A stretch of DNA of 64,000 nt from Kofleriaceae bacterium (lineage in GTDB: Bacteria > Myxococcota_A > Polyangia > Haliangiales > Haliangiaceae): contig JANTGM010000004.1 in assembly GCA_024762925.1 (NCBI GenBank), forward strand, positions 1-64,000, given 5' to 3'. Position numbers and translations under genes: made by a program. The notes beneath the pieces are model-generated. The model saw only the letters and a program-made list of their open reading frames with translations. It did no database searches and was not told where the DNA came from. Of this stretch, positions 40,433 to 58,985 are shown in pieces; positions within the stretch are counted from its first letter, which is position 1, and the number at the start of each line of letters is the position of its first letter.

Positions 40433-40606
40433 TCTGTTCCAACCAGCCAATATCGCAGGACTTTCACGACAGGAAGCTATGAGCGTACAGCCCACATGTA
40501 GGCGTTCGGGGGTAAATCTTGCTGTTGTGCGTGCTTGTTTGCGACAATCACTGGCGCTACTCGCAGACTCGCGTTCGCCGAGGAATCAATCTCAGCCACT
40601 GACCAC

Positions 40607-42160
<1,554 letters not shown>

Positions 42161-42258: not shown

Positions 42259-45200
42259 CTAGTTCGTAGCCTTGGCCTTGGTAACCTTGGGCACATCGAA
42301 CTCGCAGCGGCCCGTAACCGCGTTGAAGCTCTGGGATGAGCGACAGACATCGCCCTCACGAGCTGATGCGTCCCCATCGCCGGATCCTAAGCCTAGCACT
42401 TCGCATTCGCCTCCGGCCAAGAAGCCATCATCGACGAAACCAAGCTGCCCAAGGCCATTACCGTTGATGTCCGTTGTGTCTGGATCCTCACACATCTGGA
42501 TTGCATACATTCGCTGCATGACGGGTAGCGATAGAACACCAGAACCGGGCATGAAGGAGTCGCGCATTCGTCGACCTGTCTGCGTATTGATCTTCTCCCA
42601 GTATGCTGGCCTTGCCATACGACCGCCAGAGTTGATGATTCCAGAGGCTTGACGGAAGAACGGCTCACCGCTTGGATCGTCGGCGAAGAACGCTCCTGCA
42701 ACAGGATCGAACGATGGATCCCTCGCGGAGATGGTTGGGTCTCGGAAATCCATGTCCAGCCCACAGTTGGCGTCCTGTGGGTTTGGTAGACATCGCTCTT
42801 TGACGTGCAGCGTGTTGTCGAGCTTGAAGCCCAGCAAGTCGCCGGTGATGCCGTCGGAGGCGAGAATCCACTGCTGGCCAGGCATGATGCTTACAATCAC
42901 GTCTTGTGCGTCCAGCACCTCACCCGGTGGTCCGAAGACGTCGAGTAGGTTCTGAATCACAACAGGGTTCGCAGATGTTGTGATGTCAACATCGAGCACA
43001 CCATCGGTACCAACGGCGAGGTAGGCATGGCCGCTGGCGATGGAGAGTTCGTTGATATCCAGCCCGGGAAGAACGATTGCTTCGTCGGCGCCATCGGCAA
43101 TTGCAGGTGCAAGTGGCTCGAGAATGCTCATCACTGCGAGTCCGCCGGTTGTGCCCGCATAGAGCTGGAAGGCACCAACCGCGAGACCGTTGACCGTAAC
43201 AGTTGGGTCAATTTGAAAGCTCACAGTGTGCACTGGCGTTTGCGGCACAGCCAGGTCAAAGACCTCGATGGTGCCAACGTCGGTGCCAACGTATGCAATG
43301 TCGCCAGCTAAGACAATTTCTGTAGCATTTCCGCCACCGGGGATTGCCACGGTTGCAAGAATCTCTGCAGCGTCATTGCCAGCGTTCGGAGCGTCGTTGA
43401 TCTGCACAGCCGTGATGCCAGCTGCGCCATTGGCAACATAAACAAATGGGTCACTAACATCTGGTGAGATATGGGCCAATGCATTGGCGACATCAGGCAA
43501 GTTGAGAACGAAGACCTTGTTGGCATCCCCAACCGAGGGACGAGCGGCCGTTACATGGCCACGTCCAGAGATGTCACTGACAATCAAGATGCCGGCCGCA
43601 CCATTGCTGTGCGTAGAGACCATGACATCCCGAAGCGTTGGAGGCTGAGTTTGCCCTGCTGCCACTGGAGTCGCATTGAAGTTGCGAATAAGCGCTACGT
43701 CGGTGCCTGTGAAGTTGCCATCAATGCCGCCTGTGCCATCGAGATTCACCTCGACCTCAGCAGCCACTCGGTCCAGACCATTGACGATAATTCCCGGGAA
43801 GCGACTTGAGCCTGCTGCACCTGGGAACTGCCCCTCTTGCTTGTACTCGAAGAGCTCAAGACCGTTGCCACCAGCCATCATGACCCAGTCGCCAACGTAG
43901 CCATAGCGGCTTGCACCGAGGCCCATTGTCTCGCCAAGGATGTGATCGTTGCGAACACGGCCCTCTTCATCAACGAGGCTGTGACACTGCTCGCAGCTTC
44001 GAACTTCTTCTGGACGAACTGTGTGCGGCATCGTTTGGTTCATTGCCGAACCACTGGTTGCCACGTTGGAGCGACCTGTATTCGCATCGAGTTCCTGGAA
44101 TGTTGAGAACGTGATGTTGTCAACCAGAGTGCCATCACCATCGCTAATCGATGGGTGAACAATCATCGAAGAGCGGAATGGAGCGAGACGCTGGCCGTCT
44201 GCTGCGGCGGCGGTACCGAGAACGAATGGTGACCGCAAGAAGCTCAGAAGCTGGAAGTTCGTTGCTCCGGCTTGTAGGGAGTTGTTCATCCAAACCTCAT
44301 TCTCTCCGGCAACCTTCTCAATGGTGCCGTCGGGAAGTAGGCTGTTCTTAACCAAGTCACCGAGGCTGGTGTTGTCATGGCAACCCATGCAGTTGAGCAC
44401 CCAAGAGGTGTGGCAGGAGTAGCACTCGAGCTTTGCAGTCTTAAGGGGAGACGCGCCTGGTTCCCCCTCAAACTCAGACCCCGCTGTGAAGCCATTCTCG
44501 TCTGTTGGCTCAAGAGGAAGGTGGAAGCCGCTGTGCGCAAGTTCAGCACGTGGGTTGTAGCCCTCGTCCTCGGGATTGGTGGTATCGGGAATCTGCGGAA
44601 CCTCCCAAGTGAGACCTGGGGTCACGCGAGACCGCTGGATAATCTTGCCACCTTTGACTTCAAAGAAGGGCCGGCCATCCTGGTCAACTGCTGCCGACAT
44701 TAGATTGCCGCCATTCGCTCCTGAGGTCACAAGCGTCGCTTCTGCAGCTAGCGAGCCGTGGCAATCGTCGCACTCGATCTCGATGACTTCATGGTTGGTG
44801 CCATAGAGATGACCGTCGCCGTGGCTGTCTTGCAGCTGGTGACAATCGATGCAGTGCATGCCCCGCTCATAGTGAATGTCCATGAGGCGCGTTGCACCGT
44901 TTGCTCCACCATACACAAAGCGCGCTTGGCGACCATCGAAGCTGCGCTCTCTTGGCATGCGGTCGATAAGGTCAAGCTTGTTGTTGCCGTTCAAGTCCTC
45001 GTTGATGGTTGCCTCTGCGATAACTTTGCCATCCTCGTCGACAGCTTGCAGCACGACCTCTTCATCAAGACGGCCGTTGTTGTTGCAGTCCTCGGTGAAG
45101 GTCGCCGGTGCACAACCACCAGCACCAGCAATGATGCCCTGGTCAAAGAGCTGCTTGTCTCGCTCAATTGCGAGTTCGATAATCTCAAGTCCCTCTTCTG

Positions 45201-46998
45201 GCTCAATGAGTGTTGTCACGCCCCCAACCGTCTCTTCGCGAACGAGAGAGTCGAGGATGCGAACTTGATCGCCATCGGCCGAGATGAATTCGATGGGTGC
45301 TCGCCTTGCGAGGTCGTCGCGCTGCTCTTCTTCCGTCGTTCCCGTGTACGCAAAATTCACGCGAGTCACAAATGCGTGGCACAAGCCGCAGGTATCTGTG
45401 TCAACCCGCGTTGTCAGCTCGTGATTTGCCGAGTAGTGACGCTGCTGATCTTTGTCGGCAACGTTGGAGAATTCGCGTTCCGCAGTAGTGACAGCCATGC
45501 CTACAAGTCGGCGCTCACCGCCAATCTCTTGGATATCCTGGTTCTTCGCGTCAAATTCACGGTGGACTGTGGTTGGGTCGCGAACCTCCTCAAAAATGGT
45601 CTCGCCGTTCTCGATCTTTGCGACCTTCTGTGGATTGCGAGCTCCATCAAAGTTGTACTTCATGTGACAGCTTGTGCAGCCCATGGAGTGACCGCGCCCA
45701 AATGGGTTGTTGGTCTTGATGATGTCGACATTGGGTTTGATGGACTGCCCAAAGAGGAACGTCTGGTTCCGAACAGAGCCGGGGAAGTTGAGGGGGAAGT
45801 ACGCGCGGAATCCTCTCAGAATCGTGTCCACAGGGTCTGGAATGCCTGGTAGCAACTCGTCATTGAGTGGTGGCTGCATGGAAGGCATCGGGGCTGCCGG
45901 ATCCTTGAGGGGCTTTCCGCCCCATTCGGGGAAACGCGAGTCCTTGCCACCAACGTGCGCAACCGTCGTGTCGGCCTCAACCCCCTCTTGCCTCACGAGC
46001 GTGCCCTGCGTTGCTTCGAATGCGGGCAGGTCTGCCTCATCGATATTGGATGCGACGTTGCCGGGGGCACCAGCAACAGCGTTCGGATCGTTCACCTCAG
46101 CAAGCGCTTCTAGGCACTCAGAATCAAAGAATGGTTGCGTGCGTCCCGTTGGATCCTCAAGCGATGCATCGTTGACAATGCAACCGTCGATGCCCGTGTA
46201 GTCGAAGCTGTAGCCAAAACCACCACGGCGAGGATCGGGGGCATCTTCAAGCAAGTCACGCCCTTCCTGGAATGCCGCTCGCCAGCTCTCGTTGCCGTAG
46301 TAGGCGCCGTTGATAACGGCGGAGTTGTTGGTCATCACAGATCGGCGATTGCTCTCGACCACGCTCTGGTGACAGCCGCCAGCGGCATTGCCATTGTTGG
46401 CAGAACTCGAGGCACCACAACCAATCGTGGCAACACGCAAGTCACCCGGGTTCAGCCATCGTGTGTAGTTGAGATCGCGGTTGTACTCAGAGTCGATAAA
46501 TTGTCCAACGCCCTCACCTTGAAGGCCAGGTTCAGCAATCTCACCAAAATCAACCAGGACATCTTGGCCCAGACCGTTTACATCAAACTCGGGCCCCTCA
46601 TCGACAATGCCATCACCGTCATCGTCCATGCCGTTGCCGTAGAAGAATCGCGCAAGGCCTGGCTTGGGCTTAACGTGCGCCTCTGCGAGCAAGTCCGGAT
46701 CGCTGTAGATGTCTTCATCTTCGAAGGCGTTATCGGGAATCTCTACTTGGTCGTTGCCACCATGGCAGTCGACACAACGCAGCTTGTAGGTACCGTGAAC
46801 CTGCTTAGACTCCAGCCCCGCGTGACAGTTGATGCATGTCCCATCAAATTCGAAGTCGTCATTAACGACCGTCTCCTTGCCCTTGATACAGGCGGTAGTT
46901 CCGAGTGCCAGCACGAGTCCAACGAGAAGGAGTGAAAGACTAAGAGCCCCTTGCTGTCCTCGCTGAAAGCCAATGTTGTGAGTTTTGCGTTCGTTCAT
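42259..46998 (-). CDS. giant decaheme-type lipoprotein with beta-propeller
   Basis: 1579 residues. Lipobox ALGTTAC with Cys 37 as lipidation site. Nine CXXCH motifs (about residues 55, 75, 441, 537, 716, 743, 858, 870, 1000) and one CX14CH (C194...C209-H210). Ca-binding-like loops (MDDDGDGIVDEG at about 124-135, CNNNGRLDEE, NGNNKLD). Residues about 1130-1395 form LVIVD/beta-propeller-like repeats (GAAGILIVSDI, YVANGAAGITAVQI, AYVGTDVGTIEVFDL). It is the last gene of the six-gene operon; GAGGAGG lies ten bases before the ATG. A surface-exposed terminal oxidoreductase or electron donor to an outside partner is likely by analogy with OmcB/MtrC-type proteins, but it matches none of them closely. 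Confidence 0.88.
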   Translation of the reverse strand: MNERKTHNIGFQRGQQGALSLSLLLVGLVLALGTTACIKGKETVVNDDFEFDGTCINCHAGLESKQVHGTYKLRCVDCHGGNDQVEIPDNAFEDEDIYSDPDLLAEAHVKPKPGLARFFYGNGMDDDGDGIVDEGPEFDVNGLGQDVLVDFGEIAEPGLQGEGVGQFIDSEYNRDLNYTRWLNPGDLRVATIGCGASSSANNGNAAGGCHQSVVESNRRSVMTNNSAVINGAYYGNESWRAAFQEGRDLLEDAPDPRRGGFGYSFDYTGIDGCIVNDASLEDPTGRTQPFFDSECLEALAEVNDPNAVAGAPGNVASNIDEADLPAFEATQGTLVRQEGVEADTTVAHVGGKDSRFPEWGGKPLKDPAAPMPSMQPPLNDELLPGIPDPVDTILRGFRAYFPLNFPGSVRNQTFLFGQSIKPNVDIIKTNNPFGRGHSMGCTSCHMKYNFDGARNPQKVAKIENGETIFEEVRDPTTVHREFDAKNQDIQEIGGERRLVGMAVTTAEREFSNVADKDQQRHYSANHELTTRVDTDTCGLCHAFVTRVNFAYTGTTEEEQRDDLARRAPIEFISADGDQVRILDSLVREETVGGVTTLIEPEEGLEIIELAIERDKQLFDQGIIAGAGGCAPATFTEDCNNNGRLDEEVVLQAVDEDGKVIAEATINEDLNGNNKLDLIDRMPRERSFDGRQARFVYGGANGATRLMDIHYERGMHCIDCHQLQDSHGDGHLYGTNHEVIEIECDDCHGSLAAEATLVTSGANGGNLMSAAVDQDGRPFFEVKGGKIIQRSRVTPGLTWEVPQIPDTTNPEDEGYNPRAELAHSGFHLPLEPTDENGFTAGSEFEGEPGASPLKTAKLECYSCHTSWVLNCMGCHDNTSLGDLVKNSLLPDGTIEKVAGENEVWMNNSLQAGATNFQLLSFLRSPFVLGTAAAADGQRLAPFRSSMIVHPSISDGDGTLVDNITFSTFQELDANTGRSNVATSGSAMNQTMPHTVRPEEVRSCEQCHSLVDEEGRVRNDHILGETMGLGASRYGYVGDWVMMAGGNGLELFEYKQEGQFPGAAGSSRFPGIIVNGLDRVAAEVEVNLDGTGGIDGNFTGTDVALIRNFNATPVAAGQTQPPTLRDVMVSTHSNGAAGILIVSDISGRGHVTAARPSVGDANKVFVLNLPDVANALAHISPDVSDPFVYVANGAAGITAVQINDAPNAGNDAAEILATVAIPGGGNATEIVLAGDIAYVGTDVGTIEVFDLAVPQTPVHTVSFQIDPTVTVNGLAVGAFQLYAGTTGGLAVMSILEPLAPAIADGADEAIVLPGLDINELSIASGHAYLAVGTDGVLDVDITTSANPVVIQNLLDVFGPPGEVLDAQDVIVSIMPGQQWILASDGITGDLLGFKLDNTLHVKERCLPNPQDANCGLDMDFRDPTISARDPSFDPVAGAFFADDPSGEPFFRQASGIINSGGRMARPAYWEKINTQTGRRMRDSFMPGSGVLSLPVMQRMYAIQMCEDPDTTDINGNGLGQLGFVDDGFLAGGECEVLGLGSGDGDASAREGDVCRSSQSFNAVTGRCEFDVPKVTKAKATN

Positions 46999-47016: not shown

Positions 47017-48192
47017 TTAGTTCACGAGGTCGTCGAGTGAAGGTTTCTTGCGGCGGCGCTTGCGCGGCTTGGAATCGTCGTCGTCGACGAGAGAGTCTAG
47101 GTTGGAGCTGCTAGAGCTGCTCTTGCCCGTAAGGCTGTTAAGAATCGACTTGGACGAGTGGCAGAGCGAGCACTTGCCCGTGCCCTTGCTCTCGTTCAAC
47201 GCAGACCGATGACAGCCACTGACGCCACACTTGTTGTGGGCTCGGTCCCTGCTGTTGTCCATGATTGGCGCTTGCTTGACTTCGAGAAGACTCTGGTAGC
47301 CGTACCCCTCGTAGCGCCTGAGAGAAAACATGAAGTGGCAGTGGCCACACTGCAATGCCTCGCCGTCTTTCTTGGTTCGATGCCCCTCGCGCTCGTGCTC
47401 GAAGCATGGAGTCGCAGCTTTGCGCTTCGTTTTGAGGGCGGCATACCGAACGGAGTTGCAGCTTCGCACGTCTGTGCTGAAGCGACGCTGCTTGAAATAG
47501 GCCTTTGGATCGCCAGAGGCATGGCACTTGGTACAAGTGCCCATCGCGAACTCGGGTTCCATCGTGCGGCTCTCCTTGGCAGCGCCATCGTGGCAGAGAA
47601 CGCACTCGCTATGCCCAGGCCCCTCAGTAGCCAGGGCAAACGTTGTGGAATCCACAACATGGCAGGTTCGACAGCCCCCGCCGTTCGCCGCTGCAGCCTT
47701 GGTGTGGGCCAAGTGGTTCATTTCCACATAGTGGCCTGGCTTAGAATTATTCTTATATAGGCTTACGGCCTTTGCCTTGACGAATGGACTGGGCGCGCGC
47801 CCCGCCCCATCATCGTGACAACCAAGACAAAAGCCCGCCGCTTTTCGGTAGCGCTCGGGCGCATCCTTGCGTGTCCGCTTGCCTACGCTCAGAAAATCGG
47901 ATGCATGACAACCAGCTGAAAGGCAGGGCTGGTGTCCATGACTGGCAGGCCTGGTAAGAGCGCCCTGGGCATCATTGCCATGACACTGCTCGCAGGCTGC
48001 GATATCTACAGGATCGTCCAAATACGCATGTGCGGAATGGTCGAATTTGAGTGGCACCACGGTGCCCTCAGGGCTTTTGTCCTCTGGGTTCTGGCCAGGC
48101 GCAAGCGACACCACAGCTCCCAATACGAGAGTCGTCGTTGCAGCGCCGGTTGCAAGAACGCTCAGCCTCACGGCTTGGCAACTCCGTGGCAC
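47017..48192 (-). CDS. nonaheme c-type cytochrome with Ser/Asp/Arg tail
   Basis: 391 residues. Signal-like N-terminus (LSVLATGAATTTLVLGAVVSLAPG). Haem sites: seven CXXCH (CEQCH, CLGCH, CRTCH, CVLCH, CTKCH, CGHCH, CSLCH) and two CX4CH (CLSAGCH, CGVSGCH). Many free His in HxxH-type spacing (FDHSAH) could be distal ligands, as in cytochrome c7/c3 relatives. The last 45 residues are odd: a Ser run, a DDDD run, then RKRRRKK. This charged tail is absent from its two sister cytochromes. It overlaps the upstream gene by 25 bp. Periplasmic electron carrier. Confidence 0.87.
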   Translation of the reverse strand: MPRSCQAVRLSVLATGAATTTLVLGAVVSLAPGQNPEDKSPEGTVVPLKFDHSAHAYLDDPVDIAACEQCHGNDAQGALTRPASHGHQPCLSAGCHASDFLSVGKRTRKDAPERYRKAAGFCLGCHDDGAGRAPSPFVKAKAVSLYKNNSKPGHYVEMNHLAHTKAAAANGGGCRTCHVVDSTTFALATEGPGHSECVLCHDGAAKESRTMEPEFAMGTCTKCHASGDPKAYFKQRRFSTDVRSCNSVRYAALKTKRKAATPCFEHEREGHRTKKDGEALQCGHCHFMFSLRRYEGYGYQSLLEVKQAPIMDNSRDRAHNKCGVSGCHRSALNESKGTGKCSLCHSSKSILNSLTGKSSSSSSNLDSLVDDDDSKPRKRRRKKPSLDDLVN

Positions 48193-49031
48193 TTCACGCA
48201 GCCGAACCCGGTCGTTTTGAAGGCGTTAACTCCATCATGGCAAGCATCGCAGCTTTGCATCGTTGGTCGGGGGATTTCCGACAAGGTGTTCGCATTCTCT
48301 ACGCCGCTATGACACAGCTTACAGCCAGGCGTTTCTCGTGACTTTTCTCGAGGATCGCGATCATGATCATCATGACGAAATCGAGCTCGTACGGCGTATT
48401 TTGATTGATTCTTTAGCCGCTCTGCCTGGTAGCCAAGCTTGTGACAGTCGCCACAATCGCTCATGAGCGGACGAAGCCCCCCTTGGTGGCAACTCCCACA
48501 GACCGCGTGTGCTTCCGGCTTCTCGCCTTCCACATAGACGTTGCCATGGCAGCTCTGACACTTAACGCCACCCTTTGCAGCTTTGTCACTCTGGTGTGTC
48601 TTGTGGGAAATCTCGCCACCAAACTCAGATGTTGGCAAGTCGCGAATCCGCGCAATCTGTTTCACCCAAGGCTCGTTGGTGTCATGGCAGACGACACAAA
48701 TCTTGGGCTCTCGGCTCATGTACTCCGAGGCGTGGCAGCCAGAGGTGTTGCAGGGCTGGTGATTCTTGCCTCGGGTGACAGGCTCAATTTCGAAGCCCTT
48801 GATGCCGTGACACTGTTGGCAGTCCTCAACCGCAACACCTTTGCTCTGATGCAGCTTGTGCCCAAATCGAACCATCTCAGCACTTGGAGCAGCGGGTTCG
48901 GCAGCAGCAGCCTTTTCTTGTGCATAGCTATCATCGCTTGTGCCAAAGACGAGTGCTGCGATGACCGCCAAACCAGCGGCCACTAGGCCACGCCATACGC
49001 GGGGAACGGAGATCATGGATAGACGAGACAT
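48168..49031 (-). CDS. nonaheme c-type cytochrome
   Basis: 287 residues. Signal peptide with a cleavage-like SYAQ-E. Eight CXXCH (CQQCH, CVVCH, CQSCH, CGSCH, CGDCH, CKLCH, CDACH, CVKCH) and one CX4CH (CNTSGCH). The CX4CH segment HQPCNTSGCHASEY aligns with HQPCLSAGCHASDF of the 391-residue protein, so the two are paralogues. His-rich FGHKLH and ISHKTH pieces supply distal ligands. A soluble periplasmic carrier between inner and outer membrane is the simplest reading. Contiguous with the gene before it. Confidence 0.88.
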   Translation of the reverse strand: MSRLSMISVPRVWRGLVAAGLAVIAALVFGTSDDSYAQEKAAAAEPAAPSAEMVRFGHKLHQSKGVAVEDCQQCHGIKGFEIEPVTRGKNHQPCNTSGCHASEYMSREPKICVVCHDTNEPWVKQIARIRDLPTSEFGGEISHKTHQSDKAAKGGVKCQSCHGNVYVEGEKPEAHAVCGSCHQGGLRPLMSDCGDCHKLGYQAERLKNQSKYAVRARFRHDDHDRDPREKSRETPGCKLCHSGVENANTLSEIPRPTMQSCDACHDGVNAFKTTGFGCVKCHGVAKP

Positions 49032-49874
49032 TTAGTTGCCTCCTTGCGTGTGACACTTGGTACAGGTGGTGCCGATCGCGTTAAACGCCTTCTTGCCGTC
49101 GTGACATGACTTCTGGCAACTCTGCATGGTTGGCAATGGAACTGTCGTATCGGCTTCGGCTGATTTGATGTTTTCGTGGCAGGTGAGGCAAGCCCGGCCC
49201 GCAGTGCCAACTCGGTCCACGGCAGCATGGGCTTGATGGTCAAACTTGCCTTTCACGGCAAATGGATTGGCATTGCGTTTTGCAACGACAGCTTGTCCCG
49301 TTCCTTTGGAGTGACAACCGTCGCACGACTCCTTGATGCGTGGTGTCACGCCTCGTGCGTGGCAGCCAGAACACAGAGCGTGCCCAGCGGAGAGATTGCC
49401 TTGTGTGGGAGCGCCAGCACCAAAGCTGCCATGACAGCTCTCGCATTGCTCACCACTCTGGCTTGGCCGAATGTGCTTGCGGTGAGAATAGTTCGCAGAG
49501 AACTCACTGAGCCCTGCAGCTGGTGCGACATAGCCACTCGGCGTGCACTCGGACTTAAATGTCACGTGGCAGGTGAGGCAAACTTTGCCCTCCTTCTGCT
49601 TCAGTGTTCCACAGCTCGAACTGAACTTGTGACAGGAGAAACAACGAGCATGCTCCTTTTTTCCCTTTTGCTGCCACTCGCCATCGGCAGTTGCTGCATG
49701 ACACCGAGCGCACTCAACCTTGACGGTGCTCGCATGCTTCTCATGGCTGAAGAGGCGGTCCTGAGGGACAGCGGTTTGCATGCCCTTCTGCCCGATTGCC
49801 GGAACGGAAATGGCGGCGATTGCCAGAACAATGAGGCCAATGCCCCAAACTTGCGTGCGTGTTCGTACGCTCAT
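49032..49874 (-). CDS. nonaheme c-type cytochrome
   Basis: 280 residues. N-terminal signal (GLIVLAIAAISVPAIGQ). Eight CXXCH (CARCH, CFSCH, CLTCH, CESCH, CSGCH, CDGCH, CLTCH, CTKCH) and one CX3CH (CQKSCH), the last being a rare spacing. FSHEKHAS and YSHRKH hold distal His. The C-terminal half (PTMQSC...CHDGKKAFNAIGTTCTKCH) is clearly related to that of the 287-residue cytochrome (PTMQSCDACHDGVNAFKTTGFGCVKCH), showing duplication within the operon. One base separates it from the porin gene. Confidence 0.88.
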   Translation of the reverse strand: MSVRTRTQVWGIGLIVLAIAAISVPAIGQKGMQTAVPQDRLFSHEKHASTVKVECARCHAATADGEWQQKGKKEHARCFSCHKFSSSCGTLKQKEGKVCLTCHVTFKSECTPSGYVAPAAGLSEFSANYSHRKHIRPSQSGEQCESCHGSFGAGAPTQGNLSAGHALCSGCHARGVTPRIKESCDGCHSKGTGQAVVAKRNANPFAVKGKFDHQAHAAVDRVGTAGRACLTCHENIKSAEADTTVPLPTMQSCQKSCHDGKKAFNAIGTTCTKCHTQGGN

Positions 49875-49875
49875 C

Positions 49876-51576
49876 TTAGAAATTAGCCTCCATAAGAACC
49901 CGCAGGCTCACCATCGCGTCGATATCTGCCGCAATGCTCTGCGACGGTTGAGCCACCTCTCCCGTCGTGCGCAAGCGAACTAGTGATGTCGGCCAGTAGC
50001 CAACATCGAAGCGCACACCACCGCGGCCGTCGTTGTCGAGAACCGCGTAGGGTGACTCGATGTCCAATACCCGCACATAGCCTCCAAAAGCGGCGGATGC
50101 TTTCTTCTTGCCAAAGTTGTAGCGAGCCTCGCCCGACAGTTCGTGTAGTTGTTTTGTTCCGGTGCCGGTGGTGTCGTCAAAAGCCGAACCTTCGAGATTG
50201 CCTGTGGCGTCCAAGTCATGTGCTCGGAACTTGTACTGCCCAGTTGTGGTGAGGCGCTTGCCAATCAGCGCACTACCCGCGATCCCAAACTCTTGAAAGG
50301 GCCGAGAGAATGCATCCGATTGCTCGGCGTTCTTGACGAGTCGATTGCGATAGAAGGCATAACCTTCAAAGTTACGCGTGAGCTGATAATTGGCGCGCGC
50401 CCCAATCAATGTGGAGTTCTGTGGTGTACCAATCGCAAGCCCGAGCTCTTGCCCAACATTGACAACATCTATGGGTGATGCGCCGATGTAGTCAAAAGCG
50501 AGTTCCCGTGCAAAGTTCTTTTCGACATCGGCAATGACAGTAAGGTCATCACCAATACTCTGGCGAACCTGCCCCCCAAGCCGTCCAATACCAGAGCTAT
50601 TGTCTCCATCGGTGCCATCATCGATGAAGCGTCCACGGAAGTAGAGTCTGGTGTTTCGCGCGACTCGAGCACGGCTATTGGCCTCGATGAAGATGGGTGC
50701 AGCCGCGTCATCCCCACCAGCGTCGTAACGCATGAAGTCAACGTTGAGATCAGCTGGGTAGCCAAAAATCTCTTCGCCCCGCAACTTCACGCCCGCTCCG
50801 GCAAGAAGGCCTGGGTCATCGTTGAAGAAGAGGGAAACTCGCTGGCCAAAGAAGGCCGAGACCTCGGCCATTCGGTGGTCATAGGCCGCGGTGATGCCAT
50901 CGAAGTTTGCTACGAAACGATTTGAGCCATAGCGGTACTGGCGACCGGCGCGAAGATAGATTGAGTCGAGTACCCCGCCCTTCTCTCCGCCGAGGCCATC
51001 AAGTTCTGCGTACCCTGCCCGAATGAGCAAAGCCTGACTCTCATCACCGTCGTATACGTAGTTCATCGCAGTGAACTGACCACCGCCTGCATCGAGCTGA
51101 AAGCGCGAGAGAAAGTAGCTGTTGAGCGAAGGCATCAAGACACCACGTGTGCCGATAATGGCGTCGCCAAGCAAGTAGTTCCGATTGTCTGCGTAGGCGT
51201 TGCCTTGCGCATCCACAACATCGCCAGGTGCAAATCCCGTCTGGGCGACGTTGCCACTCAGCTGGCTGACATCAAGCCCATATCCGACGTTGGTCTTGAA
51301 TATGACACGCTCTTTGATGTCTCGGTACTGCGTTGGAATTGCCCTGTACTCGAGTCGAGACGTCTTTGCCTTTGCTGCAGGGGCTTCCTTCTTGGAAACG
51401 GAAGCATCTTCGGCAGCAGCACTGCGCATGTTGAGCGTTGACAACTCTCGCTGTGGAAGCTGCTTGAGACGGAGATCCATGGGGCTCTCGGCCAACGCAA
51501 CACTGGTACTACCCACAACAGCCGCACCAGTAACCACACCAGCAAGGACTCTACGTATTTTTCTTAGACGGCTCAT
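49876..51576 (-). CDS. outer-membrane beta-barrel, porin-cytochrome conduit type
   Basis: 566 residues from ATG 51576, which overlaps the stop of the 15-heme gene (ATGA). Signal peptide ending SVALA-ES. After a Lys/Ala-rich plug-like segment the chain shows amphipathic strands throughout (YFLSRFQLDAGGG, SIYLRAGRQYRYG, NTRLYFRGRFIDDG, FEGYAFYRNRLV) and ends with Phe (MEANF), the C-terminal signature recognised by the Bam machinery. It would form the sheath through which a multiheme protein crosses the outer membrane, as in MtrB or OmbB. Sequence similarity to those is not obvious. Confidence 0.82.
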   Translation of the reverse strand: MSRLRKIRRVLAGVVTGAAVVGSTSVALAESPMDLRLKQLPQRELSTLNMRSAAAEDASVSKKEAPAAKAKTSRLEYRAIPTQYRDIKERVIFKTNVGYGLDVSQLSGNVAQTGFAPGDVVDAQGNAYADNRNYLLGDAIIGTRGVLMPSLNSYFLSRFQLDAGGGQFTAMNYVYDGDESQALLIRAGYAELDGLGGEKGGVLDSIYLRAGRQYRYGSNRFVANFDGITAAYDHRMAEVSAFFGQRVSLFFNDDPGLLAGAGVKLRGEEIFGYPADLNVDFMRYDAGGDDAAAPIFIEANSRARVARNTRLYFRGRFIDDGTDGDNSSGIGRLGGQVRQSIGDDLTVIADVEKNFARELAFDYIGASPIDVVNVGQELGLAIGTPQNSTLIGARANYQLTRNFEGYAFYRNRLVKNAEQSDAFSRPFQEFGIAGSALIGKRLTTTGQYKFRAHDLDATGNLEGSAFDDTTGTGTKQLHELSGEARYNFGKKKASAAFGGYVRVLDIESPYAVLDNDGRGGVRFDVGYWPTSLVRLRTTGEVAQPSQSIAADIDAMVSLRVLMEANF

Positions 51577-52910
51577 CGCACCCCCCGGTGACAACGCGAA
51601 CATGTGTCTTCGTATGTGTGACAGGCCATGCAACTTGTGAGGCCAAAGCGTGCACTCTCAGCATGCCCACCGAGGCGGAACTCACCAAGAGGCTGGTGCG
51701 AGCGCGGAGGGATTGAGTGACAAGCAGTGCAGTAGTCTGCTTGGTGGCAGGTTGCACACCGATCGCGGTTCACAGATGCTTCGCGACCGTGATTCTCGTT
51801 GCGCCAACCGAGCATGTGGTCCTTCGGACGCATCACCTCGTGGCATTGGAAACACGAGTCACGAGAGTTGCCGCTCAAGTTCTCGTGACAGTATTTGCAG
51901 TTGGCATTCTCGTCGGCCGCCTGCTCGGCGTGATTGGCGCGGAACTCCAAGTTGTGATTCTCGGGAAGCGTCGAACCAGTGAGGTGAGTTCGCGGTGTAT
52001 TGCCATCGACCATGCCCTCGTGGCAAACTTTGCACTGGGCGATTCGAACCCGCTCAGGGGTTCTCTTTGGGTCTTGATGACACTTTGCGCATTCCTGCAT
52101 TTGCGGAACGCTGACATCCTTGATCTCTGTCGAGAGGGCCACGTCTTCGTGACAGGATTCACAGCCAATGCTGGCACCAGCGCGGTCTTGGACGTGATCT
52201 CCGTGCGAGAAAATTAGGCCCTCGGTGATCATGATTCGGCCTTGGGCGATATCCACTTTGCTCTGCTTGTGGCAACTCGCGCAGTCGGACATGCTCATGA
52301 CTTTCTTCGCCTTGCCCTCATGACAGCGAGCACATGCGTCGTGGCGAGGCAGGAGTGGATCGCCTGTCTTCTCATCTCGGGAATGACAGTCATCGCATCC
52401 AAGATGGAAGCCAACTGCCGATTCCATGCCCCCTTTGTCGAGGTGATCGCGATGAGAAAAGTTCGAAGCGAGCACTTTCTTGCTGCCACGCGATGGGAAG
52501 ACCTGCATCTTCGTTGCACCTTCGGCGGTGATATCGACGCTGACGTGGCAATTCTTACAAAACGCCCCAGGAGGCTTGTAGAACTCTTCTTTGTGGCAAT
52601 CGTCGCAAGGCGCATGATCGTTGCCCCCTGGGAATGGAGCAAGCCCCTTCCGCACATCCTCTTGTGGGTGACAATCCTTGCACTCGAGCCCACGATCCTT
52701 GTAGCTGGTAATGCGCTTGTCATTTCCGGTGTGCAGTTCGTGGGGAAAGCGATTGCTATCTGCGGCAATCACCTCGGCACTTGCCTTGGTCGAAGACCGA
52801 GATCGACCACTACAGGCGGCGCTCAACGAGAACGCGAGGACGAAAACAATTGGTAAGCCAAGACCAACTCTCCCCCCCCGCAAACCATCACTCAATACTC
52901 GGCGACTCAT
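51573..52910 (-). CDS. 15-heme lipoprotein cytochrome
   Basis: 445 residues from ATG 52910 (MSRRVLSDG). Lipobox LSAAC. Fifteen CXXCH motifs, all of standard spacing: CKDCH, CDDCH, CKNCH, CDDCH, CARCH, CASCH, CESCH, CAKCH, CKVCH, CKYCH, CFQCH, CATCH, CTACH, CMACH, CSRCH. Distal-ligand patterns FPHELH, FSHRDH, FSHGDH. It is the first gene of the operon and coupled to the barrel gene. It could be the outer-membrane wire (MtrA/OmaB role) that fits inside the barrel, or a periplasmic-side lipoprotein; the sequence does not decide. Confidence 0.9.
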   Translation of the reverse strand: MSRRVLSDGLRGGRVGLGLPIVFVLAFSLSAACSGRSRSSTKASAEVIAADSNRFPHELHTGNDKRITSYKDRGLECKDCHPQEDVRKGLAPFPGGNDHAPCDDCHKEEFYKPPGAFCKNCHVSVDITAEGATKMQVFPSRGSKKVLASNFSHRDHLDKGGMESAVGFHLGCDDCHSRDEKTGDPLLPRHDACARCHEGKAKKVMSMSDCASCHKQSKVDIAQGRIMITEGLIFSHGDHVQDRAGASIGCESCHEDVALSTEIKDVSVPQMQECAKCHQDPKRTPERVRIAQCKVCHEGMVDGNTPRTHLTGSTLPENHNLEFRANHAEQAADENANCKYCHENLSGNSRDSCFQCHEVMRPKDHMLGWRNENHGREASVNRDRCATCHQADYCTACHSIPPRSHQPLGEFRLGGHAESARFGLTSCMACHTYEDTCSRCHRGVR

Positions 52911-52946
52911 GGTGCGATGCCAGGATAACCACAAAGTTGCCTTTAC

Positions 52947-53017: not shown

Positions 53018-55255
53018 ATGGCCAATTCCACGCATGAAACCGGAGCAACGGCTCCCCATGTTGCCCTGCTCAGTCAGGTGCCATTTCTCTCCGACGCCAG
53101 TTCCGAGGTTCTGAAGAACCTGGCTGAGAACACCCTGGTAAGGCGATATACGGCCTATGAGCCGATATCCCAGCAAGAGGAATTCGCTCACTCCATGTTC
53201 ATCGTGGTCTCGGGGAGCGTCTCGCTTCACGCCGTTCGCAGTGATGGAGTTTCGATTCCCCTGGGCACCCTCACACGCCCTGGCGAGTTTTTCGGTGAGG
53301 AAGCTTTGCTTGGAAGGGGAATCCGCTTGGCCACGGCGGTGGCAGATACAGAGACGGTGCTCTTGGAGGTGGAGCAACGGAAATTTGCCCTGCTCGCCCG
53401 CAAAACCAGCGGAGCTTCCGAGGCGCTTGAGTACACCTACCACCAACGCTCGATCATCACGTTCATTCAGATGCACCCGTATCTGTCGCAGCTTCCTCCA
53501 GGTCAGGCCAGTCGGCTCATCGCCGGCGCTACCATGGCGACGTATCAGAAGGACGAGCTGCCTGTGCGCCAAGGCGATGCAGCGACACAAGTCATGCTGA
53601 TTGCCGATGGTGTGCTCAAGGCGCTTCGAACCACAGATGATGGACGGCTCTCGGTATTGGCCTACTTCAATAGTGGCGATGTGGTTGGCTCCCACGATCC
53701 GCCACAGCGGCCCTACAGCCTGACGGCTCTTGGCAAGGCCGAGGTCATCTTCATTCCAAAGGCAGCGTTCGACGAACTTGAGTTCACCGCACCACAAGTC
53801 TACGCCCGCTTTGGCAAGGACCGGATGTCGCGCACAGGCATCATGGAAAATGCCGGCCAGACGATCTTCGGATCCGCAGAGGCGCTCTTTCAAGAGGGCA
53901 TGGAAGTTGAGTCCTTGCTCATCATCGACCTGGACCGATGCGTTCGATGTGGCAATTGCGTTCGGGCATGCCACACCCGGCATGAGTACACCCGACTTGA
54001 CCGACGTGGGCCGATCTTTCGCCGGCGAAAATCCCTCTCCTCCAAGGAGCACGAGCACCTTCTGATTCCTTCATCGTGTCGCCACTGTCGTGACCCTGAG
54101 TGCATGATTGGCTGTCCTACGGGGGCTATCGCGCGCCACCCAAATGGCGAAGTCGAAATCAATGAGAACTGCGTCGGTTGCGATAACTGCGCTCGCAAGT
54201 GCCCCTACGGGAACATCACCATGCGGCCAATCCCGGAGGCCGAGCAGAAAGACAACATCGTCAAGCAGGCAATCAAGTGCAACCTGTGCCGTGGCCACAA
54301 ATACTCCAATTGTGTGCATGAGTGTCCACGTGGTGCCCTGCTCCGTGTGAACCCTTTGGAGCACTTTGATGAACTCGCGCTTGTCCTTGCTGCAGATCAA
54401 GATCGAGAGGGACAAGGAGCTTCAACGCGCCGCAAGCTTCCAAAGCGCTCAAGTCGCCCCATGACAACGTTGGTCGCCTCGGTGCTCTTACTCCTGCTCT
54501 TCTCGGGCGGCATTACCGCTGCGCACTTCATGGCCCCGGATTCCTACTCGGCCTCGAGTCCGCTTGGCCTTGGATTTGGCGTTGTGGGTGCTGTATGCAT
54601 TGTATTGGCCCTCTTGCTCGGCGCTCGGAAAAAGCTCAGCAACCACGGTCTGGGACGGCTCGAGAGCTGGACACAGTTACACATGACGTTTGGCGGTATT
54701 GGTTTTGTCGCCGCGATGGCTCATGCTGATTACGGAGTTGCCGGCATCGGCACCACATTGCTAATGCTTCTCTTCGCGCTCGAAATCATAACTGGCGTGA
54801 TAGGACAGCTGCTCTATTCAAACGTGCCGAAGATTCTGACCCACATCGAGAAGTCTGGGAATTCAAAGCTCATTGAAGACCTCTACGAGGAGCGCAACGA
54901 GCTCCGAGAGGGCTTGCGACAAATTCTGATCAAGCAACCATCTGAGGTTCGCGCCTTTGCATCGACCTTGCGACGGCTTGCAGGCTCTCCACGGCGCAGG
55001 TACAGCCGCCGCTTCGACGCCGCCCAACACCAAACGTTCCTACTCGCCAACCTGCCGTTGCAGGGGCATTTGGAGCACCATCGCCCTGTGATTGAGAGGG
55101 TACTCACCGACCATTGCAAAATCTCGGATACCGTGGCGCAGATCAAGCTGCACCGAGTTCTCAAGCAATGGCTCTTTCTTCACCTAGCCACCTCTGCAGC
55201 TCTCGTCACCGTACTTATCCTCCACGTTTTCACCATGCTTCCGATCGTCTGGTAG
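53018..55255 (+). CDS. cNMP-binding x2 / four-cluster ferredoxin / b-type membrane fusion
   Basis: 745 residues. cNMP domain 1 at about 15-130 keeps the phosphate cassette GEFFGEEALLGRGIRLATA (E95, R103). cNMP domain 2 at about 150-260 has a degenerate cassette (GDVVGSHDPPQRPYS). A DmsB/NrfC-like region at 305-445 holds four Cys groups (CVRCGNCVRAC, CRHCRDPECMIGCP, CVGCDNCARKCP, CNLCRGHKYSNCVHECP) for four [4Fe-4S] clusters. Then about five membrane helices (482-600 and 716-740) with His 555, 569, 722 and 736, spaced as haem b ligands (H722-x13-H736). It probably links cytoplasmic donor and quinone or periplasmic haems, gated by a cyclic nucleotide. 19 bp before the FHA fusion gene. Confidence 0.88.
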   Translation: MANSTHETGATAPHVALLSQVPFLSDASSEVLKNLAENTLVRRYTAYEPISQQEEFAHSMFIVVSGSVSLHAVRSDGVSIPLGTLTRPGEFFGEEALLGRGIRLATAVADTETVLLEVEQRKFALLARKTSGASEALEYTYHQRSIITFIQMHPYLSQLPPGQASRLIAGATMATYQKDELPVRQGDAATQVMLIADGVLKALRTTDDGRLSVLAYFNSGDVVGSHDPPQRPYSLTALGKAEVIFIPKAAFDELEFTAPQVYARFGKDRMSRTGIMENAGQTIFGSAEALFQEGMEVESLLIIDLDRCVRCGNCVRACHTRHEYTRLDRRGPIFRRRKSLSSKEHEHLLIPSSCRHCRDPECMIGCPTGAIARHPNGEVEINENCVGCDNCARKCPYGNITMRPIPEAEQKDNIVKQAIKCNLCRGHKYSNCVHECPRGALLRVNPLEHFDELALVLAADQDREGQGASTRRKLPKRSSRPMTTLVASVLLLLLFSGGITAAHFMAPDSYSASSPLGLGFGVVGAVCIVLALLLGARKKLSNHGLGRLESWTQLHMTFGGIGFVAAMAHADYGVAGIGTTLLMLLFALEIITGVIGQLLYSNVPKILTHIEKSGNSKLIEDLYEERNELREGLRQILIKQPSEVRAFASTLRRLAGSPRRRYSRRFDAAQHQTFLLANLPLQGHLEHHRPVIERVLTDHCKISDTVAQIKLHRVLKQWLFLHLATSAALVTVLILHVFTMLPIVW

Positions 55256-55274: not shown

Positions 55275-58200
55275 ATGTCTCGCTTCATGCGCTTGCTCTT
55301 TCACCGTGGCCCCTGGGCTGGCCGCGAGCTTGTGACCGCAGCACCGATGCTCCGCATAGGTAGCGACCCCTCGAAGAACGACCTTGCGCTGGATGACCCC
55401 GAACTTGCGCAAGCACATTGCATCGTGCAGCGGTCTTCCCGCGGAGAGTACATTCTGGAAGACCTCAGCCAGATGAGCGCATCGCTGTGCATCAACGGGC
55501 AGATCCCGCAAGATGACGCCGCGATCTATCTCTGCCCTGGAGATCGATTCGAACTTGGCGGCTCCGAGATCGAAGTTGCCGAGGCAAGCCCGAGACTCCT
55601 GCAAATCTCTGGTGCACACGCTGGGCGCGAGTTTCCTCTAAGCGAAGAGCTTCTCAGTTTCGGCCGGGCTCCCGACAATGTCATTGCAATCGACGACTCG
55701 GAGGCATCGGTCTATCACGCTGTCATTCGAAGCACAGCTCCGGGTTTTTCCCTAGAAGACCAACGCTCCACAAATGGCACGTTCGTCAATGGCAAGAGAG
55801 TCTCGTCTCACATTCTTGGGGATGGCGATATCGTTCGTCTCGGCCAGCAGGAGTTCCTCTTTGCCGCAGTGCAGAGTCCACTTGAGCCGGCAGATGATAT
55901 CGCGCCAGGCCAGCGCCGCCTCGACGATGTTCGGGCCTACTTCCAGATCCTCACAGGCACCCAACTCAATACACGGATCGAACTCGGATCGCTTCCGCTG
56001 CTGATCGGAACGGGGCTCGACTGCGACTTCGTCCTACACGACTCAGCGGTTGCCCCGGCACATGCTCGGGTGGTGCCAAACAACGACCTCTACTACCTTC
56101 AAGACCTCGGTTCAGGGGACGCGACGCTGGTCAACGGGCGGCGAGTTACAGGAGAACCTCGACTACTGCAACCCGGAGATCTTCTTACTTTTGGCTCTAC
56201 AACGGCCGAGTACCACGTAAAGGGCGGTGTTGTTAGCGAGACTGGCATATCGATGGCAATGACGTCGGTCATCGCGGCGGGTGCCTACGACCTAACGCCA
56301 CAAGCCAAATACGTCGTCAATGGGCATGTTGAGGTCTGCGATGAGATTCTCATTGGCAGCTCGCCAGGATGTCACCTCCAACTCGATAGCGATGGGATCA
56401 GCCCAATGCACTGCCGCATTCGCTGGTCAGGTCAGTTCACCATTGAGGACACCTCGGTCTCGGGAACGTTCTTAGGCGACAAGCGCATCGTCAAAGAATC
56501 GCTACAAGACGGCTTGGTGATCCGCATCGGCCAGGAGCTTGTCGATGTGCGCATCGCCGGCGAGCGATGCAGCTTGGACCAAATCGATCGAGCCACGGCC
56601 GCTGCCGCGATTGAGGTCGCACATGAAACCTCGTTCGACCTCTCGAAGGCACAGCTCGATCCCGCCAACATGGGTGGCGCTATCACGAGCGCTTACAAGA
56701 CAGTTTACAAGCTCAACTACGCGGACGTCGACTCATTAGTCCGTGAGCGCAAAGAGAAGTTCCGCCAAGGGGCCCCAGCCTGGCGTCCCAGCACGGACAT
56801 TCGCAGACCGGCGACGGCTCGAATCAGTGTTATTCTTACCATCCTCGCCTCAATCGGACTTGCGGCCTTCGCATACAGCAGGAACCACATCACAGAAGTC
56901 CTGGTGAATCATCCGCTCAGCGAGTCCCATTCTACAGCTCTCTTTGTCCAACAAGCCGAGCAACATGGCCTAAGGGCAGACTGCCGAGCCTGCCACAGCT
57001 TGGGTAACGGACTCTCCGACGATCTCTGTCTCACCTGTCACGAGGGGCTCAGCGCAGGCATGCGAGAGGAGCACCGCTCGACAAAGAAGGCCTTGGCTCC
57101 GGGACGTAGGCTGCCAAATTCAAGCTGTGCCGATTGCCATCGCGAGCACAATGCAACGCCACGATTTGTCATGGGAACTCCGTCGCTGCTCGGGGCTGGA
57201 CGTGGCTGTGCAGAACAAGCTTGTCACCCAAATCAGCATGAAGGCGACTTCGACAAGGACTCGGCGCCCATCGTGAACGCTGCCGAACTGCGACTGGCCG
57301 CAGGACCGATTCCCAATTTCGACACTCCCCAGGAGGAGTTTCACATTGCACATGCAAGCGTTGAGCATGAAGGCAAGAGCATTGCGATTGCCTGCACAAC
57401 CTGCCATGCAAAAGCCGATTCTCAGACCGGGGAGCTTGTTGAGCGCGAGCCTGGCAGAGCGTGTTTTGGATGCCATAGCGGTGGAGGTTCACTGCAACAG
57501 GAGTGTCTCTCCTGTCACGGCCTCGAACACGGCAATTCCCATGGCTTTGTGCGAGCCGCGACTGATGACCCTGCAATGGCAACAGTCACGCCAAAAACCA
57601 GTGCCCACCACTCACTCTTCTGGGCCTTCCTCATAATGGTCGCGCTCTTTGTTCCACTCGTTTTCTTTGGCCTTGTGCTGCGTTTGCGAGCTCGTCGAAC
57701 TGCAACACAGGTCGTCGCGCGGCTTCATGAGTTCCCTGTGGAGGCCGTCAAGCACCTGGTGCACTCGATCAATATGGACAAGTGTGTTGGCTGCCATGCG
57801 TGTGTGCAAGCCTGTCCAACCAGCGTGCTCGAACTCGTCAATCACAAGTCGCAAATCGTCAACTTCGATGCGTGCATTCAGTGTCGTGCGTGCGAAGCCT
57901 CCTGTGCCTTTGGTGCGCTCGTCATGCATGAAGCGGATAAGCCTCCGCCATCAATTAAGATGCCCGATCTTGACGCGGGACTGCAGACTCCTGTGCCAGG
58001 TCTCTACCTCATTGGACAAGCTGCGGGCATAGCTCAGGTAAAAAACGCGAGCAATATGGGTCGCACCGTCATCGACCGAGCTATGCAAGCTGGCCTCAGT
58101 CCCGGCGAAGGACAACGGCTGGGCGCACAAGTGGATGTGGTAATTGTCGGTAGTGGCCCCGCAGGGCTAAGTGCAGCTCTGAGCTGCCAGCACCACGGTT

Positions 58201-58985
58201 TGCGCGCACTCGTACTCGAGAAACAGCCCGACTTTGCCTGGACCATTCGCAACTACTTCCACAAAGGTAAAGAAGTCATGGCCGAGCCACATGAAGTTCA
58301 GCTCGCTGGTTTGCTGCCTGTTTGGGATACGGACCGCGAAGGCCTACTCGCGGCCTGGAAGAACACCCTCGAAACCGCCAAGCTTGAGATTCACTACCGC
58401 CAAGACGTCACAAACATCGAACACAACGGCCAGCACTTTGCTGTGAGTGTTTGCGACGCAGCTGGCAATCCAACCGGCACCTGGACCGCAGCCCGAGTTG
58501 TGATTGCTGTGGGGGGCTTGGGCCATCCGCGCAAGCTTGGCTGCCCAGGAGAAGAACTCGACAAGGTTCGCTCGGCCCTTGTCGACCCAGACGAGTTTCA
58601 TGGGCGCGATGTGCTTGTTGTTGGCGGCACGGACTCGGCTATTGAAGTTGCGCTTGCGCTCGCAGCCACAAACCGAGTCCAGTTTTCGTGTCGTGGTGAG
58701 AAGTTCGATAGAGCCAAACAAAAGAACCGCGACCGCATCGAAGAAGCCTTTCACTCGGGCTTGATCGCTCCACACTTTGTCACTCAAGTGGTTAACGTGA
58801 CCGAGCAAACGGTGACGCTGGAGAACCGCAAAGACGGCACACAGGTGGAGTTTGCCAACGACCTCATCTTCGCATTGATTGGTGGTATTCCCCCGAACAA
58901 GTGGCTTGAGTCGCTTGGGGTGAACTACGTTGAAAAGCCGCACAGCTGGTCACCGCCACCAACTGACGAAATTCTTCGAGGTTAG
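55275..58985 (+). CDS. FHA x4 / heptaheme / 2x[4Fe-4S] / FAD-NAD(P) oxidoreductase fusion
   Basis: 1236 residues. Four FHA domains: about 15-100 (degenerate), 115-197 (canonical FGRAPDN...STNGTFVNG), 232-316 and 347-427. TM1 at 514-534. Periplasmic domain with seven haem sites: CRACH 570, CLTCH 585, CADCH 618, CAEQACH 645 (CX4CH), CTTCH 707, CFGCH 730, CLSCH 744. TM2 at about 780-804. Two [4Fe-4S] motifs (CVGCHACVQACP 837, CIQCRACEASCAFG 867). FAD motif VVIVGSGPAGLS at 955-966 and NAD(P) motif VLVVGGTDSAIE at 1113-1124. Topology is self-consistent: FHA and flavin inside, haems outside. It would take electrons from NAD(P)H to periplasmic haems, with FHA domains sensing phosphothreonine. Confidence 0.9.
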   Translation: MSRFMRLLFHRGPWAGRELVTAAPMLRIGSDPSKNDLALDDPELAQAHCIVQRSSRGEYILEDLSQMSASLCINGQIPQDDAAIYLCPGDRFELGGSEIEVAEASPRLLQISGAHAGREFPLSEELLSFGRAPDNVIAIDDSEASVYHAVIRSTAPGFSLEDQRSTNGTFVNGKRVSSHILGDGDIVRLGQQEFLFAAVQSPLEPADDIAPGQRRLDDVRAYFQILTGTQLNTRIELGSLPLLIGTGLDCDFVLHDSAVAPAHARVVPNNDLYYLQDLGSGDATLVNGRRVTGEPRLLQPGDLLTFGSTTAEYHVKGGVVSETGISMAMTSVIAAGAYDLTPQAKYVVNGHVEVCDEILIGSSPGCHLQLDSDGISPMHCRIRWSGQFTIEDTSVSGTFLGDKRIVKESLQDGLVIRIGQELVDVRIAGERCSLDQIDRATAAAAIEVAHETSFDLSKAQLDPANMGGAITSAYKTVYKLNYADVDSLVRERKEKFRQGAPAWRPSTDIRRPATARISVILTILASIGLAAFAYSRNHITEVLVNHPLSESHSTALFVQQAEQHGLRADCRACHSLGNGLSDDLCLTCHEGLSAGMREEHRSTKKALAPGRRLPNSSCADCHREHNATPRFVMGTPSLLGAGRGCAEQACHPNQHEGDFDKDSAPIVNAAELRLAAGPIPNFDTPQEEFHIAHASVEHEGKSIAIACTTCHAKADSQTGELVEREPGRACFGCHSGGGSLQQECLSCHGLEHGNSHGFVRAATDDPAMATVTPKTSAHHSLFWAFLIMVALFVPLVFFGLVLRLRARRTATQVVARLHEFPVEAVKHLVHSINMDKCVGCHACVQACPTSVLELVNHKSQIVNFDACIQCRACEASCAFGALVMHEADKPPPSIKMPDLDAGLQTPVPGLYLIGQAAGIAQVKNASNMGRTVIDRAMQAGLSPGEGQRLGAQVDVVIVGSGPAGLSAALSCQHHGLRALVLEKQPDFAWTIRNYFHKGKEVMAEPHEVQLAGLLPVWDTDREGLLAAWKNTLETAKLEIHYRQDVTNIEHNGQHFAVSVCDAAGNPTGTWTAARVVIAVGGLGHPRKLGCPGEELDKVRSALVDPDEFHGRDVLVVGGTDSAIEVALALAATNRVQFSCRGEKFDRAKQKNRDRIEEAFHSGLIAPHFVTQVVNVTEQTVTLENRKDGTQVEFANDLIFALIGGIPPNKWLESLGVNYVEKPHSWSPPPTDEILRG

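Follow-up and report, generated by a model that had tools for sequence, protein, structure and literature searches.

When second messengers control electron flow in bacteria, they are usually understood to do so through transcription, and the four-cluster iron-sulfur (Fe-S) subunits DsrO, NrfC, HybA and QrcC, as well as AegA, carry to our knowledge no cNMP domains. Redox enzymes with a CNB domain were already known: Kannan et al. listed in 2007 a group 13 (Bact_Pyrredox) of tandem CNBs with an N-terminal pyridine-nucleotide oxidoreductase (PMC2246266), in a paper whose main text gave no hit for ferredoxin, iron-sulfur, FHA or cytochrome. Among porin-cytochrome conduits, the ext cluster of Geobacter uses a Rieske/cytochrome b pair (PMC5877670). 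No account of a whole Fe-S/cytochrome b/FHA/kinase system was found in the accessible parts of the open-access literature.

Here we analyse a 64,000-nucleotide stretch of a Kofleriaceae genome (the window), which encodes a 745-aa cNMP/Fe-S/cytochrome b protein and, beside it, a larger partner protein (Table 1). As in Bact_Pyrredox, tandem CNBs are tied to a pyridine-nucleotide oxidoreductase, but the oxidoreductase of the window lies on a second chain, the flavoprotein being the product of the neighbouring gene, and the locus has Fe-S, cytochrome b, FHA and multiheme parts besides; the single-chain form is found in L071 and in Sphingobium L075, which fits the group in domain order and cassette. 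The 745-aa protein shares the sixteen-Cys ferredoxin arrangement with DsrO, NrfC, HybA, QrcC and AegA. Its two His pairs, 14 residues apart on two hydrophobic helices, recall diheme cytochromes b of the Ni_hydr_CYTB/DUF4405/Ferric_reduct type, from which it differs by a basic loop of about 117 residues between the His helices. The FAD/NAD(P)H core of the partner resembles the Bacillus YpdA/Bdr bacillithiol-disulfide reductase, but is fused to Fe-S, c-hemes and FHA and has the C-terminal FAD motif ahead of the core. A probable porin and multiheme cytochromes, including a large ExtM-like one, recall porin-cytochrome conduits such as Geobacter extHIJKLMNOPQS, but the pair of the window is cNMP-FeS-cyt b/FHA-FAD.

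Table 1 Features of the window and their coordinates.
Feature	Coordinates	Strand	Details
Large probable outer-membrane multiheme lipoprotein cytochrome	42259..46998	-	1579 aa, 9 CxxCH; ExtM-like middle part
Cytochrome c	47017..48192	-	7 CxxCH
Cytochrome c	48168..49031	-	8 CxxCH
Cytochrome c	49032..49874	-	8 CxxCH (+1 CxxxCH)
Probable outer-membrane porin	49876..51633	-	585 aa; predicted barrel (by eye and position)
Cytochrome c, probably a lipoprotein (judged by eye)	51573..52934	-	15 CxxCH; divergent from cNMP gene
cNMP1-cNMP2-4x[4Fe-4S]-diheme cytochrome b protein	53018..55255	+	745 aa; Pfam, NCBIfam, alignments
cNMP domain 1	53066..53449	+	~aa 17-144; PF00027 best stretch aa 42-126; family profile aa 16-144
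cNMP domain 2	53465..53836	+	~aa 150-273; second PF00027 stretch; family profile aa 150-273; cassette Glu missing
Four [4Fe-4S] motifs	53918..54343	+	~aa 301-442; Pfam, NCBIfam, PDB relatives, alignment
Cytochrome b-like membrane part	54464..55243	+	aa 483-742; ~five hydrophobic segments; H555/H569/H722/H736; basic ~117-aa loop
Partner protein	55275..58985	+	1236 aa; FHA x4, TM, 7 CxxCH, TM, 2x[4Fe-4S], YpdA-like NAD(P)H/FAD domain

The ORF listing and its translation give an intact frame with an ATG start, and the observation of a protein that joins cNMP, Fe-S and cytochrome b parts is confirmed. Two stretches match PF00027 (cNMP_binding; E 2.8e-30, 104.6 bits against a cut-off of 27.5), several Pfam 4Fe-4S models match C-terminal to them, and a PDB search related the protein to Fe-S subunits and to CNB domains from cGMP-dependent kinases. 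NCBIfam returned four-cluster electron-transfer subunits, with AegA, DsrO, NrfC, ArrB, DmsB and others at E 3e-19 to 1e-10 and the set of DsrO, NrfC, HybA, QrcC and AegA at E 3e-19 to 3e-6, as well as CRP (E 3.4e-13), at scores so far below the curated cut-offs that the protein is none of them. Homologues at E <= 1e-40 occur in 31 of 377 genomes sampled evenly across the phylum (Myxococcota), and in 21 of the 235 of good quality, which argues that the architecture did not arise by chance. The window's genome holds three copies, the 745-aa protein, C26 (50%) and C16 (30%); the third copy as query found 32 of the 377 genomes, among them G006, G050, G120, G186 and G361, which were left out of later comparisons. 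A scan of the whole collection gave a single close relative, from a Kofleriaceae MAG, that is 72% identical to the 745-aa protein. Two distant paralogues in the same genome as the 745-aa protein (L011, 6115-8367; L012, 393-2510) adjoin 26- and 28-heme cytochromes; they keep the Fe-S and membrane parts and a weak trace of the CNB fold, with no PF00027 match at the N-terminus in Pfam.

The sequence-only reading had named a first cNMP domain with the Glu and Arg of its phosphate cassette, a degenerate second one, four [4Fe-4S] groups and four membrane His residues, and each of these features withstood the comparison with homologues. Sixteen cluster-type Cys (C308/311/314/318, C354/357/362/366, C385/388/391/395 and C421/424/432/436), conserved in 36/36 rows of the family alignment, look like the ligands of four predicted [4Fe-4S] clusters. 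H555, H569, H722 and H736 are kept wherever rows reach them (31-32 of the 36, the other 4-5 being gapped) and are invariant in the 18 membrane-domain sequences of alignment A3, which are 18 of the 30 full-length rows, that is, the 36 minus the partial or cytochrome-less L019, L026, L038, L041, L069 and L074. They form two H-x13-H pairs, one per hydrophobic helix, and it is by this pattern that helix pairs of bc1 and related cytochromes usually bind two b hemes in a stack. The loop between the His helices contains 21 K+R and 13 D+E, and the charge distribution would put it and the N-terminus in the cytoplasm, so that H555/H722 would face the inner and H569/H736 the outer side. Because the AlphaFold2 model from two rows (P0001, L042) reached a mean pLDDT of only 42, the helix pairing rests on sequence, and the helix borders come solely from this low-confidence model. 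The C-terminal 275 residues matched no Pfam family, the membrane parts of 18 members gave nothing above cut-off in Pfam (best E 0.011-0.053) and NCBIfam, and a profile search of the PDB with the membrane part matched no solved structure; sub-threshold Pfam matches of the Ni_hydr_CYTB/DUF4405/Ferric_reduct type appeared in 2-6 of the 18 members.

The partner gene starts 19 bases after the 745-aa frame. Of its four FHA domains, only FHA 2 has the pThr-binding residues (GR...SVYH...STNG) complete, and the other three look degenerate. Its flavoprotein core is best matched by Bacillus YpdA (E 5.7e-26 to 7a76). An FAD 'GD' motif normally closes the C-terminal end of such flavoprotein domains. In the partner it sits between the Fe-S part and the flavin core (TPVPGLYLIGQAAG in the window, VPGLYLAGDVTG in the sister clade), whereas in a Sphingobium homologue that aligns to the partner domain (pairwise E 8e-07) it has its usual C-terminal place; the partner flavoprotein domain (57735-58985) therefore seems circularly permuted, although the permutation is not significant against the PDB alone. 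A heme/Fe-S/FAD partner was found near the cNMP protein in 27 of 35 fetched loci, including L071, where it is fused in the same frame; loci without one are L047, L048, L049, L063 (FHA part only), L067, L069, L073 and L074, several of them cut by contig ends. L071 (9250-11805), from another family of the phylum, encodes FAD-cNMP2-Fe-S on a single chain that lacks the membrane part.

The two proteins complement each other in anatomy. The partner carries hemes in the periplasm and FAD/Fe-S in the cytosol, and no membrane heme ligands were found in it; the 745-aa protein has membrane heme ligands, without c heme or flavin. Because the partner thus holds both ends without a membrane crossing and the 745-aa protein the crossing only, neither alone would be an unbroken wire. 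This complementary anatomy is the strongest argument that the 745-aa protein and its partner would each supply half of an NAD(P)H-FAD-FeS-heme b-heme c wire, and we regard it as very probable that the two form one system.

Phyla other than Myxococcota were reached through plasmid records only. A tblastn search of plasmids found 12 Sphingobium records covering 58% of the 745-aa protein and 2 others that match the Fe-S part only. Plasmid pMSHV of S. herbicidovorans encodes an 825-aa protein (L075) with FAD-cNMP-cNMP-Fe-S on one chain, and both of its cNMP cassettes look canonical when the sequence is read. The next gene encodes a free cytochrome b, a homologue of the window membrane part (E 2e-10) in which both His pairs recur, and is followed by that for an FHA-like protein with 10 CxxCH; a divergent cytochrome is homologous to the large cytochrome of the window (E 2.3e-46), and no homologue of the window's porin was found on pMSHV. 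That another phylum has the same parts with different cuts between them is a good argument for one system.

The best explanation of the locus, which we hold with moderate confidence, is a module that transfers electrons across the envelope and takes a cyclic nucleotide and a phospho-signal as its inputs, in which the 745-aa protein would be the inner-membrane wire and switch subunit, and for which we infer the ligand, the gating, the cofactor occupancy and the direction of electrons. NAD(P)H would reduce the partner's YpdA-like FAD domain, from which electrons would run along the partner's pair of [4Fe-4S] clusters, enter the four of the 745-aa protein and go on to two b hemes stacked between the H-x13-H helices, thereby crossing the membrane from the H555/H722 side to the H569/H736 side. 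In the periplasm the partner's seven c hemes would take them over, and the 15-heme cytochrome together with the porin/outer-membrane cytochrome would convey them to an external acceptor. When cNMP1 binds a cyclic nucleotide, for which cAMP is the likeliest candidate, the Fe-S domain joined to it would shift and thereby raise or lower the flow with no need for new transcription, and phosphorylation would act through the FHA domains or, in a sister clade, through a kinase and a pseudokinase. That the module transfers electrons across the inner membrane we hold with good confidence, and the chances that cyclic-nucleotide binding controls their flow we judge to be about even.

The cNMP1 phosphate cassette (FGEEALLGRGIRLATA) bears E94 and R103, and the corresponding cNMP2 region (VVGSHDPPQRPYSLTA) lacks the Glu. 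In the family alignment E94 and R103 are frequent but not universal (33/36 and 31/36 rows): L038 has Thr in place of Glu and lacks the Arg, L024 carries Tyr instead of Arg and L064 Asp instead of Glu, L069 and L074 are without the Arg, and L019 has a gap at the cassette. Among full-length rows each is kept in 29/30, and they rank 3rd and 4th in conservation among 120 cNMP1 columns; the lack of cassette conservation among orthologues, which the sequence-only reading had said would count against it, is thus not what the alignment gave. In cNMP2 the Glu is absent in the near clade, and most sister-clade rows have Gly-Asp there, so that this nucleotide site looks lost or changed, and the conservation of E94/R103 set against the loss of the cNMP2 Glu suggests that the cNMP1 site is under selection. 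cNMP domain 1 is therefore likely to bind a cyclic nucleotide, with cAMP the most likely predicted ligand and cGMP or another nucleotide possible. The CNB fold can also take other ligands, as nucleosides in trypanosome PKA illustrate (PMC6440977). A source of ligand exists in the nine class III cyclase matches of the genome, one of them inside the window. This triple-receiver cyclase (11909-13708) is next to a gene that is CheB-like by sequence, and the region 11909-14772 resembles a chemosensory cluster.

The same domains might instead be structural, with cNMP and FHA serving dimerisation or docking of an electron module that is not under nucleotide control. The degenerate cNMP2 of the near clade fits such a role, and so do L011/L012, whose lack of a recognisable PF00027 domain suggests that the core can work without nucleotide; we nevertheless consider it unlikely, as a place for E94/R103 within the four most conserved cNMP1 columns is unexpected for a pure scaffold and the Sphingobium chain is canonical in both cassettes.

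On the outer side, the reading of a gated module that delivers electrons across the envelope draws on the divergent genes. The five clustered cytochromes carry 9, 7, 8, 8 and 15 CxxCH, and their envelope location is inferred. The large cytochrome, found in 7/35 genomes of the order, matches Geobacter ExtM locally (E 2.6e-22), and the probable porin matched no Pfam or NCBIfam family. The porin has a conserved place in L043 and L093-L097, and the 15-heme gene is in the same place in L042, L043, L093 and L094, that is, in every contig long enough, each of which also has the divergent cNMP protein (L095, L096 and L097 end earlier). In L043, from a different family of the order, the whole eight-gene order is kept (OM cytochrome-three cytochromes-porin-15-heme cytochrome/cNMP protein-partner). 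Sequence does not set the direction of this chain, and electrons from outside, for example from reduced iron, might enter via porin and cytochromes and proceed to heme b, Fe-S, FAD and finally NAD(P)+ or ferredoxin, with cNMP gating uptake; low-potential Fe-S and FAD would be needed for reverse electron flow too. Such an inward module appears quite unlikely to us, given that ExtM, the closest relative with a name among outer-membrane proteins, is part of a Geobacter cluster linked to the reduction of selenite/tellurite and Fe(III) (PMC5877670). A Ser/Thr kinase with a TM tail (40535-42160), convergent with the large cytochrome gene, was considered as a cognate kinase and is not counted as part of the system, because G046 has no orthologue beside its OM cytochrome, only a weak match ~5 kb away.

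The phosphorylation input proposed for the outward, gated module would find its parallel in the sister clade, which has a Ser/Thr kinase and a pseudokinase-heme fusion in place of FHA. Near the cNMP gene, its full-length loci have a fusion of pseudokinase and pentaheme cytochrome in 19/19 cases, an apparently active Ser/Thr kinase in 17/19 and a VWA protein in 15/19, the kinase or pseudokinase status having been read from the active-site motifs of two kinase and three pseudokinase sequences. In L010 (5871-8852) the pseudokinase is joined by one TM segment to the pentaheme cytochrome c. In the unrooted tree the 19 kinase-clade rows and nine FHA-partner rows fall on opposite sides of one branch (support 100/99); tree rows L017 and L018 carried no kinase/FHA label. 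Since kinases write the phosphothreonine that FHA domains read, both clades seem to couple phospho-signalling to the same electron module. That a small flux through Fe-S/heme b instead alters the cNMP, FHA or kinase state, so that redox controls signalling, would suit the many signal domains (cNMP x2, FHA x4, or kinase plus pseudokinase-heme fusion) and the frequent sister-clade kinase, but is very unlikely, since the 745-aa protein has no output domain (DNA binding, cyclase) and the 54 CxxCH motifs and probable porin of the window cluster suit bulk electron traffic.

The first interpretation of the 745-aa protein is thus partly supported. Its fusion of CRP-type domains to a redox module stands, whereas the premise that such a fusion is an exception was too strong, as CNB-oxidoreductases had already been listed (PMC2246266); the proposal that cAMP gates the protein and switches respiration may hold for the module described here. 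More tentatively, the family may represent a widespread class of respiratory or extracellular electron conduit in which the wire of the inner membrane doubles as the receptor, with both cyclic-nucleotide binding and Ser/Thr phosphorylation directly gating an Fe-S/cytochrome b chain much as ligands gate ion channels. If true, a conserved wire with a canonical cassette would switch respiration, or else extracellular electron transfer, directly and fast, and for work on it the Sphingobium version offers a named cultured host, S. herbicidovorans; the module would also link kinase/FHA signalling, abundant in the phylum, to energy metabolism.
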